Positions 1 to 39,218 of a stretch of DNA of 39,218 bases are shown piece by piece. The stretch's first letter is position 1. Every line of letters starts with the position of its first letter. The position numbers were made by a program, and so were the translations under genes. The notes beneath the pieces were generated by a model. It ran no database searches. It was not told the DNA's origin and was given only the letters and a program-made list of their open reading frames with translations. Origin of the DNA: an uncultured Bacteroidales bacterium (GTDB taxonomy: Bacteria > Bacteroidota > Bacteroidia > Bacteroidales > Bacteroidaceae); contig CACZJU010000019.1 in the NCBI GenBank assembly GCA_902781515.1, positions 1 to 39,218 of the forward strand. Reading direction: 5' to 3'.

Positions 1-190
1 CCCAGTATTCATCGGGCTTGGAATGGAGGTACCTGTATCAGTAACAGGTACCTGACAGGTACCTCAAACCTCACACTCCAAGTTACCTGATAAGGTACCT
101 GTTAGTTACCTGTTGGGTTGACAGGTACCTGTTGACGAGGCCTTTATTCATCGGGGCTTAAAGACGGTAGAGGTACCTGGGTACCTGTTT
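1..190. repeat. Cluster of AGGTACCT palindromes (two head-to-head element ends)
   Basis: AGGTACCT palindromes lie at 27-34, 46-53, 57-64, 93-100, 123-130 and 171-178, with GGTACC at 180-185 and a one-base variant AGTTACCT at 103-110. Centres 30.5/49.5/60.5 are 19 and 11 bp apart; centres 96.5/107.5/126.5 are 11 and 19 bp apart, so the second triplet is the reverse complement of the first. A TATTCATCGGG word follows or precedes the groups (7-17 and 144-154). The same layout recurs at 38848-38941. No gene is seen here. The role is unknown. Confidence 0.8.
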
Positions 191-230
191 TCACACATTT
201 CTTCATTTTCAGGCATAAACACATGTCAAA

Positions 231-446
231 GGTTAACTTAACTTATGGCCTAAGGTTGGTGAACCTTTGCGCTTAGGTTGGCGAACCTATTGCCATAGGT
301 ATAGTAGTGTTAAGCACGGATCATTACTATCGCTTTACGCTTAGGAATACTATTCCTTCCCTCATAGGGATACTATCTCTCCGATGGAAGGTACTAGAAC
401 TTAAGGTCAAAGGTACTAGAACCTATTTCGATAAGGACTAGTACCT
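231..446. repeat. Array of ten different dyads phased at 22-23 bp
   Basis: Successive short dyads are centred near 237, 259.5, 281.5, 304, 327, 350, 373, 395.5, 417.5 and 439.5. Examples are GGTTAACTTAACT, AAGGTTGGTGAACCTT, AGGTTGGCGAACCT, GGAATACTATTCC, GGTACTAGAACC and GGACTAGTACC. Those at 304 and 327 are degenerate but keep the phase. Odd-length dyads add 23 bp and even ones 22 bp, so the linker of about 8 bp is what stays constant. It is not a CRISPR array, because no sequence is repeated exactly. A homologous array lies at 38624-38840 in the opposite orientation. Confidence 0.85.
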
Positions 447-447
447 T

Positions 448-540
448 GTGATCACCCGAGCGCAAATTTGCGCCCGGCTACTTCGCTGAGGGAAAAATTT
501 CCCTGGGCTATAACAAGAGCTGAAATTTCAGCCCTTGTCC
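448..540. repeat. Hairpins built on AAATTT cores
   Basis: After a GTGATCAC palindrome at 448-455, three longer dyads share an AAATTT-like core but differ in their arms: GCGCAAATTTGCGC (centre 466.5), AGGGAAAAATTTCCCT (496.5) and GCTGAAATTTCAGC (525.5). Spacing is 29-30 bp, unlike the 22 bp phase upstream. Each could form a stable hairpin in RNA or a cruciform in DNA. None is followed by a clear T-run, so they are not obvious terminators. Confidence 0.7.
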
Positions 541-810: not shown

Positions 811-837
811 ATGAACAAATTTATTACAAGGAATGAC

Positions 838-3177
838 ATGAAAAGATTGTGTTTTGCGATACTCGCATTGAGTATGGCGAGTTTGAGCAGTGCTCAAAAG
901 ACCCCTCTCCTGATCTCCCCCGAGGGGAAGGGAGATTCAGTGAAGATGGAGCAGTTGCAGGAAGTGACGGTGAAGGCCACTCGTGCTGGTAAACGTACAC
1001 CAATGGCAGTTTTAGAGTTGAAAAGTGAGGAAATAAAGGCCTCGAATCATGGTAAGGATGTACCTTCACTCTTCTCGATGATGCCAAGTGTGACAACAAC
1101 CAGCGATGCTGGAGCCGGTATTGGCTACACCTCGTTCCGTGTACGTGGTACTGATCCTTCACGTATCAACATCACAGCCAACGGTGTGCCTCTGAATGAC
1201 GGAGAGAGTTCGCTTGTGTATTTTTCAAACATGGGCGACTTCGCCAGCAGTGTGAAATCGATACAGATGCAGCGAGGCGTGGGTACCAGCACCAACGGTG
1301 CGGGAGCCTTCGGCGCTACGGTGAACATGCTTACCGAACCAGTTGCCTCGAAGCCTTTTGTATCTTTTGATGCTGCAGTTGGATCGTACGCAACACATCG
1401 CGAAACGGTGCGCTTCGGTACAGGGCTTATCGGTGAGCATTTCGGCATTCAGGGACGTCTCTCGAATATCGGAAGCAACGGATATATCGACCGTGCTACG
1501 TCGTCGCTCAATTCGTATTTCCTTCAGGCGGGATGGTTTGGCGACAATACGGTAGTGAAGTTTATAACCTTCAACGGTAAGGAACGCACGTATATGGCTT
1601 GGAACTATACTTCTAAGTATGAGCAAAGTCTCTACGGACGTACATACAATTCTTGTGGACTTTATTATGACAAGAATGGGAACATGCGTTTCTATGAAGA
1701 TCAGTACGACAACTATCACCAGCAACACTATCAGCTACACTGGAACCAGCATGTCGGTAAACAGTGGACTACTAACCTTGCCCTTCACTACACTCGAGAC
1801 GGATATGACTACGACCAGATGAAGACGGGAAAGAAACTGTACCAGTGGCTGTTGACAGACGATACTGCGATGCGTGGAGACCTTGTGCAACGCAAGGGTG
1901 GTACGAAGGACTTCTATGGGGTAGTGGCGTCCGCCAACTATAAGAACTCCAAAGGCTTGGAGGTGAACATGGGAGGAGCTGTAAACCGCTTCTACTCAAA
2001 GCACGACGGTAACGTGATATGGGTGGGAACGCCATATTACAAGGGTGCCGAGAATGTCGCCCTCCCCCTGTCAGGTCTTACGCCCAATAACCCCTATTAC
2101 AACACCACTTCGCATAAGACGGATGCTAACATGTATGCCAAGGCTACATGGGAAGTGACACGTGGACTGGCGCTCTTCGGCGATTTGCAGTACCGCTTCA
2201 TCAACTACGAATTGTATGGAGTGCTTGACGATTGGGACAATAACAACAAACAACTGAATATCGACATTGACAAGAATTTCCACTTCCTGAATCCGAAGGT
2301 CGGTGTGAACTATGAGTTCCTGCGCCACCACCGTCTTTATGCTTCGTACGGCATTGCCCATCGCGAGCCAACGCGCGACCACTACCAAGAGCATTTCGGC
2401 GAGGATGTGCGAGCTGAGCGACTGGGCGACGTGGAGGTGGGCTACAAGTTCCAACACAAGCGCTTCAGTGCCGGCATCAACCTCTATCACATGCACTACA
2501 AAGACCAGTTCGTGCTGACGGGCGAACTCGACGACGAGGGAGTTGCCATTACAAAGAACATCCCCAAAAGCTACAGAATGGGAATGGAAATTGAGGCTGG
2601 CTGGCAACCCGTAGAATGGTTCAGTTGGGATGCCAACGCTACGTTGAGCCGCAACCGTGCCAAGGATATGATAGTGACGCTCGACGACTACACCACTAAG
2701 GTGAACATAGGCGAGACGCCGCTTTCCTTCTCACCAGGTTTTATCTTCAACAACCGCTTTACGTTTAAATACAAGGGAATGCGTGCCGAAATTACAAGCA
2801 AATACGTGGGCGAACAGTATCTCACCAACTACGGCGTGAAGAAGATGACATGCTGGAACTCGTGGACACAGACAGATGCCACAAAGACCAGTGAGACGTT
2901 GATGCTGGGAGCATTCTTCACGACAGACGTTGACCTCAGCTACACCTTCTCGATTCCAAAGGCAAAATGGCTGAAGGACATCACGGCAGGTGTTGCCCTC
3001 TACAACATTTTCAACTCAAAGTACGACAACAACGGATGGGCAGCTCCGCAGTTCCGACAGTATGCCGACGGCTCTGTTTATGCCGTGAATACATGGGGCT
3101 TGCGCGACTCTGAGGCTGTGGGCTTCGCTCCATCTGCTCTTTTCAATGTACTTGGATACGTTTCTATAAACTTTTAA
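838..3177 (+). CDS. TonB-dependent receptor, probable outer-membrane thiamine transporter
   Basis: The 779-residue product should be a TonB-gated outer-membrane barrel importing thiamine or a related compound. A signal peptide (MKRLCFAILALSMASLSSAQ) is followed by a TonB-box-like LQEVTVKATR and a plug domain to about residue 150 with VRGTDPSRINITANGVPLND. The remainder is a beta barrel ending in the terminal phenylalanine typical of outer-membrane proteins. It lacks the carboxypeptidase-like domain and SusD partner of glycan systems. The thiamine assignment rests on the TPP riboswitch and the pnuT gene 8 bp downstream. The ATG at 838 is preferred over 811 because it is preceded by AAGGA and starts the signal peptide cleanly. 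Residues about 21-35 are encoded by a C/G-rich repeat (899-937). Confidence 0.85.
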   Translation: MKRLCFAILALSMASLSSAQKTPLLISPEGKGDSVKMEQLQEVTVKATRAGKRTPMAVLELKSEEIKASNHGKDVPSLFSMMPSVTTTSDAGAGIGYTSFRVRGTDPSRINITANGVPLNDGESSLVYFSNMGDFASSVKSIQMQRGVGTSTNGAGAFGATVNMLTEPVASKPFVSFDAAVGSYATHRETVRFGTGLIGEHFGIQGRLSNIGSNGYIDRATSSLNSYFLQAGWFGDNTVVKFITFNGKERTYMAWNYTSKYEQSLYGRTYNSCGLYYDKNGNMRFYEDQYDNYHQQHYQLHWNQHVGKQWTTNLALHYTRDGYDYDQMKTGKKLYQWLLTDDTAMRGDLVQRKGGTKDFYGVVASANYKNSKGLEVNMGGAVNRFYSKHDGNVIWVGTPYYKGAENVALPLSGLTPNNPYYNTTSHKTDANMYAKATWEVTRGLALFGDLQYRFINYELYGVLDDWDNNNKQLNIDIDKNFHFLNPKVGVNYEFLRHHRLYASYGIAHREPTRDHYQEHFGEDVRAERLGDVEVGYKFQHKRFSAGINLYHMHYKDQFVLTGELDDEGVAITKNIPKSYRMGMEIEAGWQPVEWFSWDANATLSRNRAKDMIVTLDDYTTKVNIGETPLSFSPGFIFNNRFTFKYKGMRAEITSKYVGEQYLTNYGVKKMTCWNSWTQTDATKTSETLMLGAFFTTDVDLSYTFSIPKAKWLKDITAGVALYNIFNSKYDNNGWAAPQFRQYADGSVYAVNTWGLRDSEAVGFAPSALFNVLGYVSINF
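899..937 (+). repeat. C/G-rich palindromic element inside the receptor gene
   Basis: Within the reading frame, a C-run then G-run stretch (core TCTCCCCCGAGGGGAAGGGA) forms an imperfect hairpin and begins with AGACCCCTC. It resembles the elements at 3407-3460 and, in reverse complement, 35399-35426. It encodes the linker just after the signal peptide, where an insertion would be tolerated. Confidence 0.5.
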
Positions 3178-6772: not shown

Positions 6773-7815
6773 CATTTCTTCCCAGCATATTATCCGACAA
6801 CGAACGACTGACGCTCCAGCGGCTCGTGGCTGAAGCAAAGAATGTTGTGCTGTTGTGTCACCAGAATCCTGACGGTGATGCTATCGGCAGCATGACAGCC
6901 GCAACATTGTTGATGCGTCGCTTAGGCAAGACAGCCACACCTATAGTTCCTAATAATTACCCCGATTTCCTGTCGTGGTTGCCAGTGAACAGCGATATTC
7001 TTCTGGGCGACAGGCAGCATAGGCGAGTGGATAATGCTTTTGCAAATGCCGACCTCGTGCTGATGCTCGATTTCAACGGACTCAGTCGTGCCGGTCAACT
7101 TCTGGCAGACAAGCTCGCAGCTTGCAGTGCTCCACGAATAATGATAGACCATCATTTGAATCCAGAAGACTGCTGCCAGTTGACTATCTCACATCCGGAG
7201 ATGTGTAGCACCTGTGAGGTGTTGCTGCGAGTGATGCTCGACATGGGATGGACGGAAGGACTGACTGCCGACGAGGCCCGTGCCCTTTATACAGGCATCA
7301 TGACAGATACTGGTAATTTTGCATACGCATCTAACCGTCCAGAAGTGTTCCAGGCTGTCAGCATACTGTTGACTACGGGGATTGACAAGGATAAGATATA
7401 TCGTAATGTATTCTTCTCCCACACCGAAGGACGTTTCCGTCTAATGGGATATCTGCTATACGAGAAGATGGAGATAATGCATGAACTGCACACGACCCTG
7501 ATAACAATGACCAATGAAGAGCGAATGCGCTTCAATACAAAGAATGGTTCAACAGAGGGCTTTGTGAACATACCTTTGGAGATGTCGGGCATGAAGTTGA
7601 GCATATTCCTGCGTGAAGATACGGAGCAGGAAGGACTGATACGAGTTTCAACCCGCAGTGTTGATGATTTCCCATGCAACGAGATGTGTTCCCGTTTCTT
7701 CAACGGCGGCGGTCATAAGAATGCAGCAGGCGGCTCGCTGAAAATGACAATGGAGGAGGCTGTTCAGGTTGTTCATAGCGCAGTGTTGGCTTATCGTGAG
7801 GTTTTGCGGTTATGA
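6769..7815 (+). CDS. nrnA: DHH-family phosphoesterase, NrnA-like oligoribonuclease / pAp phosphatase
   Basis: A 348-residue cytoplasmic enzyme of the NrnA type hydrolyses very short oligoribonucleotides and 3'-phosphoadenosine 5'-phosphate. The DHH domain shows NPDGDAIGS (residues 33-41), DFNG (101-104), IDHHLNP with His128-His129, and DTGNFAYAS near 185. The DHHA1 domain ends in GGGHKNAAGG near 315, which binds substrate. Length is normal for the family. It starts inside the stop of the exported endonuclease gene, so both nucleases are probably made from one message. Its last codons are part of an 8-bp tandem repeat. Confidence 0.9.
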   Translation: MTFLPSILSDNERLTLQRLVAEAKNVVLLCHQNPDGDAIGSMTAATLLMRRLGKTATPIVPNNYPDFLSWLPVNSDILLGDRQHRRVDNAFANADLVLMLDFNGLSRAGQLLADKLAACSAPRIMIDHHLNPEDCCQLTISHPEMCSTCEVLLRVMLDMGWTEGLTADEARALYTGIMTDTGNFAYASNRPEVFQAVSILLTTGIDKDKIYRNVFFSHTEGRFRLMGYLLYEKMEIMHELHTTLITMTNEERMRFNTKNGSTEGFVNIPLEMSGMKLSIFLREDTEQEGLIRVSTRSVDDFPCNEMCSRFFNGGGHKNAAGGSLKMTMEEAVQVVHSAVLAYREVLRL

Positions 7816-7848
7816 GGTTATACGGTTTTAAGGTTATAAGGTTTTGAA
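7801..7848. repeat. Period-8 tandem repeat at the end of nrnA
   Basis: Six degenerate 8-bp units of the form GTTWTRMG (GTTTTGCG, GTTATGAG, GTTATACG, GTTTTAAG, GTTATAAG, GTTTTGAA) run without interruption. The first two carry the last codons and stop of nrnA; the rest fill the gap to the next gene. Confidence 0.75.
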
Positions 7849-7850
7849 TT

Positions 7851-8564
7851 ATGATAAAGACAATGAAATATCTATGTGCTCTCTGCTTGCTTTGTGTGGT
7901 GTGCGTGAGTTGTAAGGACGACGAGACTTATGCAGACCAGAAAAAGAAGGAACGTAAGGCTGTGGAGGCTTTCCTGGCTCGTGATCCATTGATTTTGAAG
8001 GACTCTGAGGGCAATGTTCTATTGAGCACTTCGCGTATAAATGTAATCTCTGAGGAGCAGTTTGAGGCTCAGGGAGAGATGACGGATACGGCGAAGAACG
8101 AGTATGTGATGTTCAAGAAGACGGGCATTTATATGCAGATTGTGCGTCAGGGTGTTGGCGAGAAGTTGAAGAGCGGCGACAATAAGCGCATCATCAGTCG
8201 CTATTGGGAATACAGTCTTATGGGCGACAGCTTGCAGAGCACCGATAAAACGTATTTCTGGATGACCAATCCCGAAATAATGGATGTTAGCATGAACTCC
8301 GGTACTATTACTGCCAGTTTCAACATTGATGATGAAATAGCAAATGGCGGTGGAGCAATGTATATGCTTTATGGCAACGGCAGTAAGTCTGTGCCTTCGG
8401 GATGGATTGTACCGATGTCATATATCAAGGTAGGACGTCAGACAAGTGAGGACGGAATAGCCTTGGTGCGTGTTCTTATTCCTCATAGTCAGGGTACTCA
8501 AACAGCTACAAATACAGTTACTCCCTATTTCTATGAAATAAGTTACCAACAAATGCGCGATTAA
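7851..8564 (+). CDS. DUF4827 family lipoprotein
   Basis: A 237-residue exported lipoprotein. The signal MKYLCALCLLCVVCVSC ends in a lipobox cysteine followed by KDDETYAD. The body (EAFLARDPLILKDSEGN, then IYMQIVRQGVGEKLKSGD, ISRYWEYSLMGDSL) matches the Bacteroidetes DUF4827 family as I recall it, which resembles FKBP-type domains and often sits beside the DHH phosphoesterase. The function is unknown. An in-frame ATG at 7863 would give a shorter, more typical signal peptide and may be the true start. Confidence 0.75.
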   Translation: MIKTMKYLCALCLLCVVCVSCKDDETYADQKKKERKAVEAFLARDPLILKDSEGNVLLSTSRINVISEEQFEAQGEMTDTAKNEYVMFKKTGIYMQIVRQGVGEKLKSGDNKRIISRYWEYSLMGDSLQSTDKTYFWMTNPEIMDVSMNSGTITASFNIDDEIANGGGAMYMLYGNGSKSVPSGWIVPMSYIKVGRQTSEDGIALVRVLIPHSQGTQTATNTVTPYFYEISYQQMRD

Positions 8565-8574
8565 AAAAGCGGTA

Positions 8575-9711
8575 TTAAAGCATCAGGTCACGGATGATGC
8601 TGTCGCTGACAAACAAACCGCGGCGGGTGAGGCAGAGAGCTTCGTCCGCCGTTTTTCTTAAGTTCCCGTTATTGATGTGTGGTTGAGCCATTCGAAGGCA
8701 GTAGTCAAGCCTTTCTTGTCCAAACTCGCCAAGTAGTCTTGATAAGGACAAGCCTTCAACAGTGCGTAATGATAGCATTATTAGCTCGTTGTAGCGTTCC
8801 TCCTCATTCAGGTGCTCTTCTGTTGAAGGTAATTCGCCGCGAGAAATGCTATCTATATACTGCTTTATATCTTCGCAGTTGGAACTGCGAACACAGGACT
8901 TGGGGTTATAACTGTGAGCCCCAGCTCCAAGACCTATGTAGGGTTGGTTGGTCCAGTATGAAGAATTGTGGCGCGAGCGGTAACCGGGCATTGCGAAGTT
9001 AGATATCTCATAGTGTTCCATTCCGGCTTCGGCAGTTATGTCTATGAGAGAGTTGTAGCAAGCCAGACTAAGTTCTTCGTCGGCTTCATTTATCTCTTCA
9101 CGCTCCAGCATAGAGTAGAGTGGTGTGCCCATCTCAAACTGTAAGGCATAGGCTGACAGGTGTGTTATGCCAAGCGATAAAGCCGTTCGGACATCATTTG
9201 TGAACTGTTCATGAGTCTGTCTGGGCAAACCATAGATGAGGTCGAGACTGAGGTTTGAGTAACCAGCCTTTTGTAGAAGTCGCACAACCTCAATGGCCTG
9301 TTTGGCAGAGTGTCGCCGCCTAAGTAGTTGCAGTGTTCCGTCGTTAAAACTCTGTACGCCCATACTGATACGGTTGACGGGTGTTTCTTTCAGCAGAGCA
9401 ATCCAGTCCTGGTTGACATCATCGGGATTTGCCTCGATGGTTATTTCTGCATCTGGTGCCAGCGTCACTTGCTTGCAAACAGAACTGAAGAGGCGACGGA
9501 GTGCTTCACCAGTTAGTTGAGAAGGCGTTCCGCCGCCAATATACATAGAGGTTAAGGGTTTGTCGTTTGCATTCTTAATCCTTAGCTGTAGTTCTTTTTC
9601 CAGTGCTTCGACGTAGGGCAGTTGCCACGTTGAGGACAGGGTAGTAGAGTAGAAGTCGCAGTAAATACAGCGACTTCTACAGAAAGGAATATGAATGTAA
9701 ATTCCTGTCAC
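8575..9711 (-). CDS. hemW: HemW, radical SAM haem chaperone
   Basis: This 378-residue protein has the radical SAM cluster motif Cys11-x3-Cys15-x2-Cys18 (IPFCRSRCIYCDFY) at the very N-terminus, then MYIGGGTPSQL, EANPDD, RISMGVQSF and LSLDLIYGLPRQT, the HemW / oxygen-independent coproporphyrinogen oxidase-like signature. HemW is thought to deliver haem rather than to oxidise coproporphyrinogen. It is the last gene of a minus-strand unit, starting 9 bp after the DUF4878-like gene ends. Confidence 0.9.
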   Translation of the reverse strand: MTGIYIHIPFCRSRCIYCDFYSTTLSSTWQLPYVEALEKELQLRIKNANDKPLTSMYIGGGTPSQLTGEALRRLFSSVCKQVTLAPDAEITIEANPDDVNQDWIALLKETPVNRISMGVQSFNDGTLQLLRRRHSAKQAIEVVRLLQKAGYSNLSLDLIYGLPRQTHEQFTNDVRTALSLGITHLSAYALQFEMGTPLYSMLEREEINEADEELSLACYNSLIDITAEAGMEHYEISNFAMPGYRSRHNSSYWTNQPYIGLGAGAHSYNPKSCVRSSNCEDIKQYIDSISRGELPSTEEHLNEEERYNELIMLSLRTVEGLSLSRLLGEFGQERLDYCLRMAQPHINNGNLRKTADEALCLTRRGLFVSDSIIRDLML

Positions 9712-9720
9712 CGGTCGAGG

Positions 9721-10122
9721 TTATTTCTCGCCGTCAACCATCCACTTGCCGTCCTCGGTCTTAATCATCTTGGAGCGCTCCTCCTTCGTATTGCCATTAG
9801 CATAGGTGACATTGGCAACAACAGTAGCGTGAGTCTCGTCCTCATCAAACTCCTCGCTTATGACCTCGAACTTTGTCATTTGCTTGTCCTCGGGCAGTCC
9901 GTCTTTGACTTTGTTTTCCACCATCTGCAGGTAGAATTCCTTCTTTTTCTGTACCTCTTCGGGCTCGCCCTTCATATATACATACTCAAGAGCTGTCTTG
10001 TAGTCGCCCTTTATGATTGCCTTTGAATAGGCTTCTGCTGCTGCCTTGGGACTGTTGCTGCTACATGCTGCCATGAAGATGGCTGCGAGAACCACGAATG
10101 TTGAAAAAATCAGTTTTCTCAT
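9721..10122 (-). CDS. DUF4878-like lipoprotein
   Basis: A 133-residue lipoprotein. The signal MRKLIFSTFVVLAAIFMAAC carries a lipobox ending at Cys20. The mature part (SPKAAAEAYSKAIIKGDYKTALEYVY, ending DGKWMVDGEK) has the cystatin/NTF2-like layout of DUF4878 proteins: one long helix, then strands with a final GxWxV. The role is unknown. It lies between a YiiX-like gene (12 bp away) and hemW (9 bp away) on the same strand. Confidence 0.7.
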   Translation of the reverse strand: MRKLIFSTFVVLAAIFMAACSSNSPKAAAEAYSKAIIKGDYKTALEYVYMKGEPEEVQKKKEFYLQMVENKVKDGLPEDKQMTKFEVISEEFDEDETHATVVANVTYANGNTKEERSKMIKTEDGKWMVDGEK

Positions 10123-14750: not shown

Positions 14751-15467
14751 ATGGACTTGAAAAAACGCATTCTGCTTTGTGAGGACGATGAGAGCCTGGG
14801 TATGCTGCTTCGCGACTACCTTGATGCCAAGGATTATGAAACCGTGCTTTGTCTTGACGGTCAGGCCGGATATGAGGCATTCCAGGAGGGCTTCTTTGAT
14901 ATGTGTGTGCTTGATGTGATGATGCCTAAGAAGGACGGTTTCACTTTGGCACAGGAAATCCGTGATATTGATGCCGAAGTACCCATCATTTTCCTTACGG
15001 CAAAGAACCTGAAGGAAGATATCTTTGAGGGATTCAAGATAGGTGCCGACGACTACATCACCAAACCCTTCTCAATGGATGAACTGGTGTATCGTATGGA
15101 AGCCATATTGCGTCGTGTAAAGACTCGGGAACCGGTGGTTGCTCTCTATAAGCTCGGAAAGTTCCTTTTTGACACCCAGCGCCAGATTCTATCCATTGGC
15201 AGTCAGCAGACCAAACTCACCACCAAGGAAAGTGAGTTGTTGGGACTTCTGTGCTCGCACGCCAATGATGTACTGCTGCGCGAACTGGCTCTGAAGAGGA
15301 TATGGATTGACGACAACTACTTCAACGCCCGTTCAATGGATGTCTATATCACTAAGCTTCGCAAGCACCTGAAGGCCGACCCAACCATTGAAATCAACAA
15401 TGTTCACGGCAAGGGCTACAAGCTCATAGTTCCCTCTGGCATCGAGGTCAAGGAATACTTGGAGTAA
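14751..15467 (+). CDS. rprY: Response regulator RprY (OmpR family)
   Basis: A 238-residue regulator: receiver domain 1-120 with acidic pocket Glu11-Asp12-Asp13, phospho-acceptor Asp55 (CVLDVMMPKKDG), FLTAKN and ADDYITKPFSMDEL with the invariant Lys, then a winged-helix DNA-binding domain ending in RSMDVYITKLRKHLK and NVHGKGYKL. It agrees strongly with Bacteroides RprY as I recall that sequence. RprX phosphorylates it; RprXY has been tied to envelope and stress responses, but the signal and targets in this organism are not visible here. Confidence 0.9.
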   Translation: MDLKKRILLCEDDESLGMLLRDYLDAKDYETVLCLDGQAGYEAFQEGFFDMCVLDVMMPKKDGFTLAQEIRDIDAEVPIIFLTAKNLKEDIFEGFKIGADDYITKPFSMDELVYRMEAILRRVKTREPVVALYKLGKFLFDTQRQILSIGSQQTKLTTKESELLGLLCSHANDVLLRELALKRIWIDDNYFNARSMDVYITKLRKHLKADPTIEINNVHGKGYKLIVPSGIEVKEYLE

Positions 15468-15490: not shown

Positions 15491-15556
15491 TTTTTCCCAT
15501 ACGTGGGAAAAGCGTTTCCCATATTTGGGAAAACCTCTTCCCATAGGTGGGAAAAA
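15491..15556. repeat. Three-unit 22-bp palindrome array downstream of rprY
   Basis: CCCATACGTGGG (15496-15507), CCCATATTTGGG (15518-15529) and CCCATAGGTGGG (15540-15551) start exactly 22 bp apart. Each is flanked by TT before and AAAA after. Only the central dinucleotide (CG, TT, GG) and the middle of the 10-bp spacer vary. A partial unit (GTGGGAG) precedes it. The 22 bp phase equals that of the arrays at both window ends, but the words differ. Confidence 0.85.
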
Positions 15557-27926: not shown

Positions 27927-27934
27927 TTCTGGTT

Positions 27935-28006
27935 TAGTAGCTTAGTAGTTTAATAGCTTAGTAGCTTAATAGCTTAGTAGTTTAATGGTTTAAGGGTTTA
28001 AGAGTT
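27935..28006. repeat. Period-8 tandem repeat after tamL
   Basis: Nine consecutive 8-bp units of the form TARTRGYT (TAGTAGCT, TAGTAGTT, TAATAGCT and later TAATGGTT, TAAGGGTT, TAAGAGTT). Several units contain in-frame stop codons. Confidence 0.85.
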
Positions 28007-31553: not shown

Positions 31554-31577
31554 CCTTCCCGTCAACCTTTATTATTT
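31545..31577. terminator. Bidirectional terminator between the Crp/Fnr gene and ompH
   Basis: AAAGGTTGAC (31545-31554) pairs with GTCAACCTTT (31561-31570) over 10 bp. Six T follow the stem on the minus strand and ATTATTT on the plus strand, so it can serve both convergent genes. Confidence 0.8.
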
Positions 31578-31605
31578 ATTATCTATTATTTATTATCTAT
31601 TATTT
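31571..31605. repeat. Period-7 tandem repeat at the end of the ompH-like gene
   Basis: ATTATTT and ATTATCT alternate for five units. The last one carries the stop codon of the minus-strand gene. Confidence 0.75.
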
Positions 31606-38840: not shown

Positions 38841-38846
38841 TGAAAA

Positions 38847-38955
38847 CAGGTACCTTACTACCTCAACACCCTTCCAGCCCCGATGAATAAAGGGCTGAAC
38901 GGGAGGTACCTGCTGCTCAAACAGGTACCTAACAGGTACCTCATAACCTCACTGT
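38847..38955. repeat. AGGTACCT palindrome cluster, copy of the left window end
   Basis: AGGTACCT at 38848-38855, 38904-38911, 38923-38930 and 38934-38941. The last three centres are 19 and 11 bp apart, as at 27-64. A CAGCCC/GGGCTG hairpin (38875-38897) encloses CGATGAATAAA, the reverse complement of the word at 142-154. The TGAAAACAGGTACC at 38841-38854 mirrors GGTACCTGTTTTCA at 180-193. Confidence 0.8.
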
Positions 38956-39218
38956 CTCTTTAAATGCCTTCAGTTGACACTTAACTTATGAATTATCAAT
39001 TCATTACAATTTTGATTTCCGAAATGTTTCGGCTTCTTTAAAAATTTTTTGGAAAAGATTCGTGAAGCGCATTGTTGATATTATATCTTTGCAGCGAGAA
39101 AAGATAGAGTTGAATAAACCACTAAACATTTATATAAAATCTATAGTAAGGAAAGGGCGAATTGGCATGGTGTTTGTAATATTAAAGATGACGAAGCAAG
39201 CCTGAAGAACACGTTTTA
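38956..39218 (+). other. Gene-free end with palindrome and an outward promoter
   Basis: CCGAAATGTTTCGG (39019-39032) is a perfect 14-bp palindrome. TATCTTTG at 39084-39091 is a -7 box pointing out of the window. The 120 bp after it contain only very short open frames (longest 12 codons from 39164), so the gene it serves probably starts beyond 39218. No other structure is seen. Confidence 0.5.

Follow-up and report, generated by a model that had tools for sequence, protein, structure and literature searches.

The window, the whole stretch of 39,218 nucleotides analysed in this study, is contig C19 of the 2.46-Mb, 46-contig assembly of an uncultured Bacteroidales bacterium (Bacteroidaceae; GCA_902781515.1). 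Close to its left end, an array of short palindromes is located upstream of two promoter-like blocks, a TPP riboswitch and the gene for a TonB-dependent receptor. Two further arrays are present in the window, one of which (15493-15555) sits between the stop codon of an OmpR-type response regulator gene and a terminator-like hairpin recognised by eye. The features are the following:

27-190, no strand assigned: upstream module with abundant AGGTACCT and a TTCATCGGGG motif
206-214, plus strand: left end of the array element, TTTTCAGGC
231-446, no strand assigned: ten imperfect palindromes of 14/15 bp in a heterogeneous array, with linkers of about 8 bp (units of 22-23 bp)
436-454, plus strand: right end of the array element, GACTAGTACCTTGTGATCA
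455-540: long AAATTT-centred palindromes downstream of the array, centres 466.5, 496.5 and 525.5
727-825: TPP riboswitch (Rfam match)
811-3177: TonB-dependent receptor gene
14751-15467: OmpR-type response regulator gene
15493-15555, no strand assigned: third array, with 2.9 repeats of 22 bp, the units resembling TTTCCCA-NNNN-TGGGAAA
38645-38840, no strand assigned: second array of like kind, nine dyads, adjoining a GGTACC module

The promoter-like blocks lie in tandem at 589-726, with an inverted AAATAC-CAAAT-ATTTG-GTATTT and a TATCTTTG box. A wider query of 561 bp matches 60 of the 81 genus genomes (own included), the genus matches listed being mostly to the promoter-like block; used by itself as the query, this block is found in 9 of 61 family-sample genomes, frequently at multiple places.

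The ten dyads of array 231-446 are centred at 237, 259.5, 281.5, 304, 327, 350, 373, 395.5, 417.5 and 439.5 and pair, in that order, 6, 5, 6, 3, 4, 7, 6, 5, 6 and 5 of seven arm positions. Only the dyad at 350 is perfect; eight are clear and two (304 and 327) are weak. Jointly they pair 53 of 70 arm positions, a value reached by none of 3000 dinucleotide shuffles of window 190-460, in which the best chain scores 45. This confirms the phased-palindrome pattern of the initial annotation, ten dyads with centres 22-23 bp apart. The half-integer spacings, ascribed there to odd or even dyad length, are explained in the same way here: each unit consists of an imperfect palindrome of 14 or 15 bp and an 8-bp linker, which gives the alternation between 22 and 23 bp. 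The mean step is 22.5 bp. The weak dyads at 304 and 327 match units on contigs C10 and C17, AGGAATAGTAATGTT and AGCATTACTATYGCY. These are neighbouring 15-mers that are, by eye, near reverse complements of each other, so that the dyad at this place spans the linker instead of lying within each unit.

The DNA of this genome was sampled twice, in a first, contiguous part and in a second part aimed at known matches. With a 226-bp query for the array, at least 21 matching pieces are found in the genome, the array itself included. Both ends recur. The fuller TTTTCAGGCAWAACAGAT-type left end has eight copies in the sampled part of the genome, seven of which precede an array, and the right end GACTAGTACCTTGTGATCA has seven matches there, six of them (the window copy included) terminating an array; the remaining copy of each end has no array beside it. 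Left ends like TTTTCAGGC-AAAACAGAT precede arrays on contigs C2, C14, C8, C7, C10, C25 and C9, and right ends like GACTAGTACCTTGTGATTA close arrays in the window and on C2 (twice), C8, C25 and C9. The order of units is broadly common to separate loci as well, running from AGAT-type through GGTTAA-type and CTAG-type to an end unit. Array 231-446 is shown by these copies to be one representative of a dispersed, ordered intergenic element with conserved ends. Its surroundings are also found elsewhere: the module at 27-190 is repeated beside other arrays, with 97% identity on C10 and 94-100% at the end of C2 over the matching parts, and DNA similar to 455-540 follows the array copies on C8 and C25. 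Within the window, AGGTACCT-rich modules flank arrays at 27-190 and 38842-38960. The copy at the end of C2 does not contain the part that matches window 33-118, and both the window contig and C10 begin inside a AGGTACCT-rich repeat.

Applied to a total of 433,845 bp from this genome (the window, C1 1-160 kb, C2 and C14 1-80 kb), a detector of dyad chains that takes no account of sequence finds 13 chains scoring 6 or more, a few of them being two-dyad or A+T-only chains, against 0.2 chains per shuffled set. Chains of three or more dyads, with A+T-only chains mostly dropped, provide 136 units: 35 without a mismatch, 51 with a single one, 40 with two and 10 with a larger number. Pairing rates at arm positions 1-7 are 0.68-1.0 across the 64 first-sample units, values inflated by the scoring of these very positions. 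The unscored arm position 8 pairs at the chance level of 0.27-0.29 in the same units, and the dyads accordingly end at 7 bp per arm. The two central positions, excluded from the choice of phase, pair at 0.50 and 0.65 in this genome and at 0.31-0.40 and 0.50 in relatives; such weak central pairing is compatible with the loop of a DNA or RNA hairpin or with the spacer of a protein site.

By eye, the units of this genome are CTAG-centred, TTAA-N-TTAA, ATASTAT-centred or AGAT-N7-ATCT, and their outer bases are mostly AGG/AAG...CCT/CTT. The initial annotation had stated that symmetry and phase are kept and sequence is not. This holds within the genome and between species, with the correction that the units fall into a few classes. 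In the linkers, the column majorities of 105 exact examples from this genome approximate AT[GC]GCCAT. The pattern WTNGCNAW is matched exactly in just 12 of these 105; among consensus units it is present in 8 of 55 from this genome, 9 of 34 from the genus and 1 of 23 from other genera and named relatives, with shuffled means of 1.5, 0.8 and 0.5, respectively. As the pattern was derived partly from data in which it was then counted, a conserved WTNGCNAW linker would be a lead only. A separate observation concerns the less perfect units: of the 50 with at least two mismatches, five can be composed exactly from two half-palindromes that are known from other places, a count that has no chance control. 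Unit L099 of this genome, AGGGATAGTAATCCT, is an example. Such joins may be hinting at exchange at palindrome centres.

At the level of sequence, the array is nearly confined to its genome. Among 80 further genomes of the genus, three (G001, G017 and G026) contain short pieces of the 226-bp query (32-61 bp, 74-91%); 59 further genomes from the order sample and 60 from the phylum sample give no match. An origin from a phage or plasmid was rejected, since phage and plasmid collections contain no match to the array and viral contigs no exact match of two patterns.

The picture is different at the level of architecture, for which non-overlapping tandem arrays were counted by period. Among periods 18-26, the most frequent in the genus is 22 bp, with 25 of 125 arrays, and 22-bp arrays are present in 15 of 20 stretches (381 kb). 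This period also ranks first in the family's other genera, with 16 of 68 arrays, and 8 of their 20 stretches carry 22-bp arrays (354 kb, one stretch being all-N). Outside the family, a period of 22 bp accounts for 2 of 41 arrays in the order sample, which includes one same-family stretch (L127), six stretches shorter than 15 kb and three that are all-N, and for 1 of 43 in the phylum sample (3 of 84 together; Fisher p 1e-4 for genus and other genera against order and phylum samples). Some stretches, 14 of 20 from the genus and 3 of 20 from the family, were preselected in that they lie on contigs found via another repeat; leaving out preselected contigs and L127 gives 19 of 87 against 3 of 82 (p 4e-4). 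When periods 22 and 23 are pooled, the contrast weakens to 42 of 193 (genus and family) against 10 of 84 (order and phylum; p 0.065), or to 20 of 87 against 10 of 82 for unselected stretches (p 0.07). The order and phylum samples hold seven arrays of period 23, and the peak of the own genome is divided over 21 bp (9 arrays), 22 bp (10) and 23 bp (13). Per Mb, arrays of 22 or 23 bp number 68 in the genus, 45 in the family, 23 in the order and 8 in the phylum. The class thins out across the phylum with no sharp family limit, and it is the exact 22 bp that marks the family.

The palindromic character extends to these relatives. Units are palindromic in 41 of 55 cases in the own genome (column-shuffled mean 16.3), 20 of 34 in the genus (9.1) and 17 of 23 in the family and named relatives (4.5), each time above the maximum of 50 controls; many individual arrays among relatives are weak dyads, though the set as a whole exceeds its controls. 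Examples of relatives' units are CGCACCGTGGTGCG, ACATACATGTATGT, TCCGAGCGCTCGGA and AAACAATATTGTTT. All 10 outside arrays of 22 or 23 bp pass the dyad threshold, with a control mean of 2.9 and maximum of 7. L119, a genome from a different family of the order, carries two arrays of 23 bp (8231-8298 and 9647-9736) with a ACAAGCTTGT-like palindrome, by which the class extends beyond the family. Palindromic minisatellites with lineage-specific sequences are thus shown to be dense in the sampled genus and family stretches, for the most part at exactly 22 bp, and thinner, at 22 or 23 bp, in the rest of the phylum. The comparison with shuffled DNA and related genomes suggested in the initial annotation comes out in its favour, with chains far above shuffled sets and relatives that carry such arrays.

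Bacterial repeat families are usually recognised by sequence. Here, what persists between species is unit length and symmetry, whereas the sequence itself is exchanged, and the class is therefore hidden from similarity searches (three of 80 genus-mates found by sequence against 15 of 20 stretches by period). The similar rhythm with other palindromes in sister species hints at a shared rule for making or using the arrays. If a protein or copying mechanism does impose the 22-bp step, comparison across species would offer a route to that factor in a group of bacteria that is common in gut and rumen.

Orthologous gaps allow a view on turnover. For the gap behind the response regulator, the best matches from 81 genomes (own included) gave 30 loci. 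Four of these (own, G017, G025 and G062) have 22-bp arrays of unrelated sequence, 24 have no array of period 20-24, and two (L188 and L189) have arrays within this range of a period other than 22. In front of the orthologous receptor, two of ten named relatives carry a 22-bp array whose sequence is a different one (L033, -363 to -307; L034, -853 to -706); five of the ten have no period-22 array in the at least 700 bases examined in each, and three are represented by under 300 bases of upstream sequence. Arrays thus occur irregularly across orthologous sites, and strict conservation of their position is not supported, although conceivable. Frequent random insertion could yield arrays in the same orthologous gaps, and a site preference is possible.

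Nearly all arrays (52 of 53 tandem arrays, own and genus samples) lie outside genes as called by a simple purpose-made caller. Of 46 arrays with both neighbours known, 28 are in co-directional, 9 in convergent and 9 in divergent gaps, the length shares of these gap types being about 0.66-0.71, 0.12-0.13 and 0.17-0.22. The palindromic arrays of the own genome are found in convergent gaps in 8 of 19 cases against a share of 0.15 (p 0.004). This enrichment fits a role at 3' ends, and the explanation that we prefer below does not account for it.

Known repeat systems resemble the arrays in part. REP/BIME elements are, in the part of the published account used here, intergenic, palindromic, high-copy and species-specific sequences driven by RAYT transposases (PMC3733652). 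Compared with that description, the arrays share intergenic palindromes, high copy number, species specificity and a steadier linker beside variable palindromes, but differ by their tandem 22-bp lattice and by the lack of any Y1 transposase found in the genome. The RAYT/Y1 family PF01797 has no match in the own assembly (G000), and RAYT-driven REPs were rejected on this ground, although at 86% completeness the missing match does not prove that the gene is lacking. The same family matches 13 of 41 genus genomes, 10 of them above the cut-off, and 5 of 14 named control genomes, E. coli among them. By eye, no GTAG or CGTC tag was recognised, and the linker majorities given above do not read as one. 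As to a MITE, the two conserved ends show by eye no terminal inverted repeat between them, and the relatives have diverged too far for an empty site, and with it a target-site duplication, to be placed to the base. A CRISPR array was rejected, the palindromes and the 8-bp linkers both being varied in place of identical repeats with unique spacers. The neisserial dRS3/NIME elements are short palindromes with a constant outer and a variable inner part that form intergenic mosaics; unlike the present array, they are not known to form a fixed 22-bp tandem lattice. In the open-licence literature, we found no account of 22-bp palindromic arrays in this family. The statement of the initial annotation that the array fits no common repeat class is roughly right, REP/BIME and BrickBuilt of Porphyromonas gingivalis being the nearest systems known to us, and BrickBuilt the closest among published minisatellites that we found.

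With a confidence that falls slightly short of even, we favour a REP/BIME-like, fast-turnover repeat class that acts at the DNA level, is densest in this family and has a driver other than a RAYT transposase. The arrays would be non-autonomous repeats without coding function; they would reach new intergenic sites by being copied there and lengthen by tandem duplication. Their symmetry would act or arise in DNA and not as an RNA stem-loop, as a symmetric protein site, or as a hairpin or cruciform formed when the DNA is single-stranded or supercoiled, and a fixed geometric step in amplification or binding may hold the unit near 22 bp. That one conserved machine, a protein filament or a hairpin-copying system, reads the dyad geometry at this step while each species has its own palindromes is conceivable, if rather unlikely. 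Neutral minisatellites without function, whose copies are made by replication slippage and whose symmetry is restored by template switching in quasi-palindromes, so that the sequences drift without losing their symmetry, are an unlikely source that nevertheless agrees with several of our counts: just 35 of 136 units are perfect and 51 have one mismatch, 24 of 30 response-regulator loci are arrayless (period 20-24), arrays occur in all gene orientations, and the half-palindrome joins (five of 50, again without chance control) point in the same direction. They leave unexplained, however, why 22 bp is common to unrelated sequences across genera, why linkers are related in the own genome and the genus, and why the unit order is common to separate loci. 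A nucleoprotein scaffold would have a homodimer on each palindrome, with adjacent dimers in contact at the 22-bp step, and the resulting filament or loop would shape the intergenic DNA. In its favour are the roughly constant step and the 7-bp arms of the dyads, which correspond approximately to a dimer site in size. Yet at 10.5 bp per turn the array centres wind round the helix (R 0.38; mean R 0.23 across the 15 arrays with at least five dyads) and they align just near 11.25 bp per turn, so that the proposal of the initial annotation that all dyads share one face is contradicted and one-face phasing was rejected for relaxed B-DNA at 10.5 bp per turn. A single specific binder could also not accommodate sequences this varied among units and species, except by recognising shape, and we regard such a scaffold as quite improbable.

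The multi-hairpin RNA also proposed in the initial annotation, for instance a transcribed 3'-end stabiliser or processing signal, was examined in a strand test, which starts from the premise that selected RNA stems show G-U rather than A-C mismatches on the sense strand. Arrays between co-directional genes have 54 such mismatches, 24 G-U against 30 A-C (own arrays, all positions: 13 and 10; arrays of other genomes, arm positions 3-7: 11 and 20, with 12 and 12 at inner positions). An assumed 3:1 bias towards G-U is rejected at 2e-6, and neither selection for an RNA stem-loop nor the proposed RNA role is supported. The RNA fold of the array does beat its shuffles (z -4.6), as is expected of any dyad array; array 15493-15555 lies between stop codon and terminator-like hairpin, those of G017 and G025 are likewise placed, and the convergent enrichment in the own genome fits as well. 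Against these points, 9 of 46 arrays are in divergent gaps and Rfam gives no match over the array at gathering score, its only matches in the window being tRNA and TPP. Such an RNA is, in our judgement, highly unlikely. Descent from, or membership in, a BrickBuilt-type MITE we consider very doubtful. BrickBuilt is described, in the portion of the account relied on here, as a MITE/minisatellite with a 23-nt tandem unit, dispersed, always intergenic, and with ATARTAT in its consensus (PMC4596501). Tandem, dispersed and intergenic organisation in the Bacteroidales is shared, the heptamer is by eye that of one unit class here, and period 23 accounts for 5 of 41 arrays in other families of the order. 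As far as that portion goes, however, BrickBuilt repeats variants of one unit, whereas the present palindromes differ along the array and between species, are mostly at 22 bp and fall into several classes of 22- or 23-bp units instead of one 23-nt consensus. In a comparison limited to the repeat unit, the BrickBuilt consensus pairs 6 of 8 positions, which 962 of 5000 shuffles equal or exceed; a dyad symmetry beyond chance was rejected for it.

Besides the palindromic arrays, this genome has many short tandem repeats with unit lengths of 7, 8, 14 or 16 bp, among them those at 7797-7847, 27932-28006 and 31568-31605 of the window, and period 7 makes up 58 of the 211 tandem-repeat rows in the own sample.
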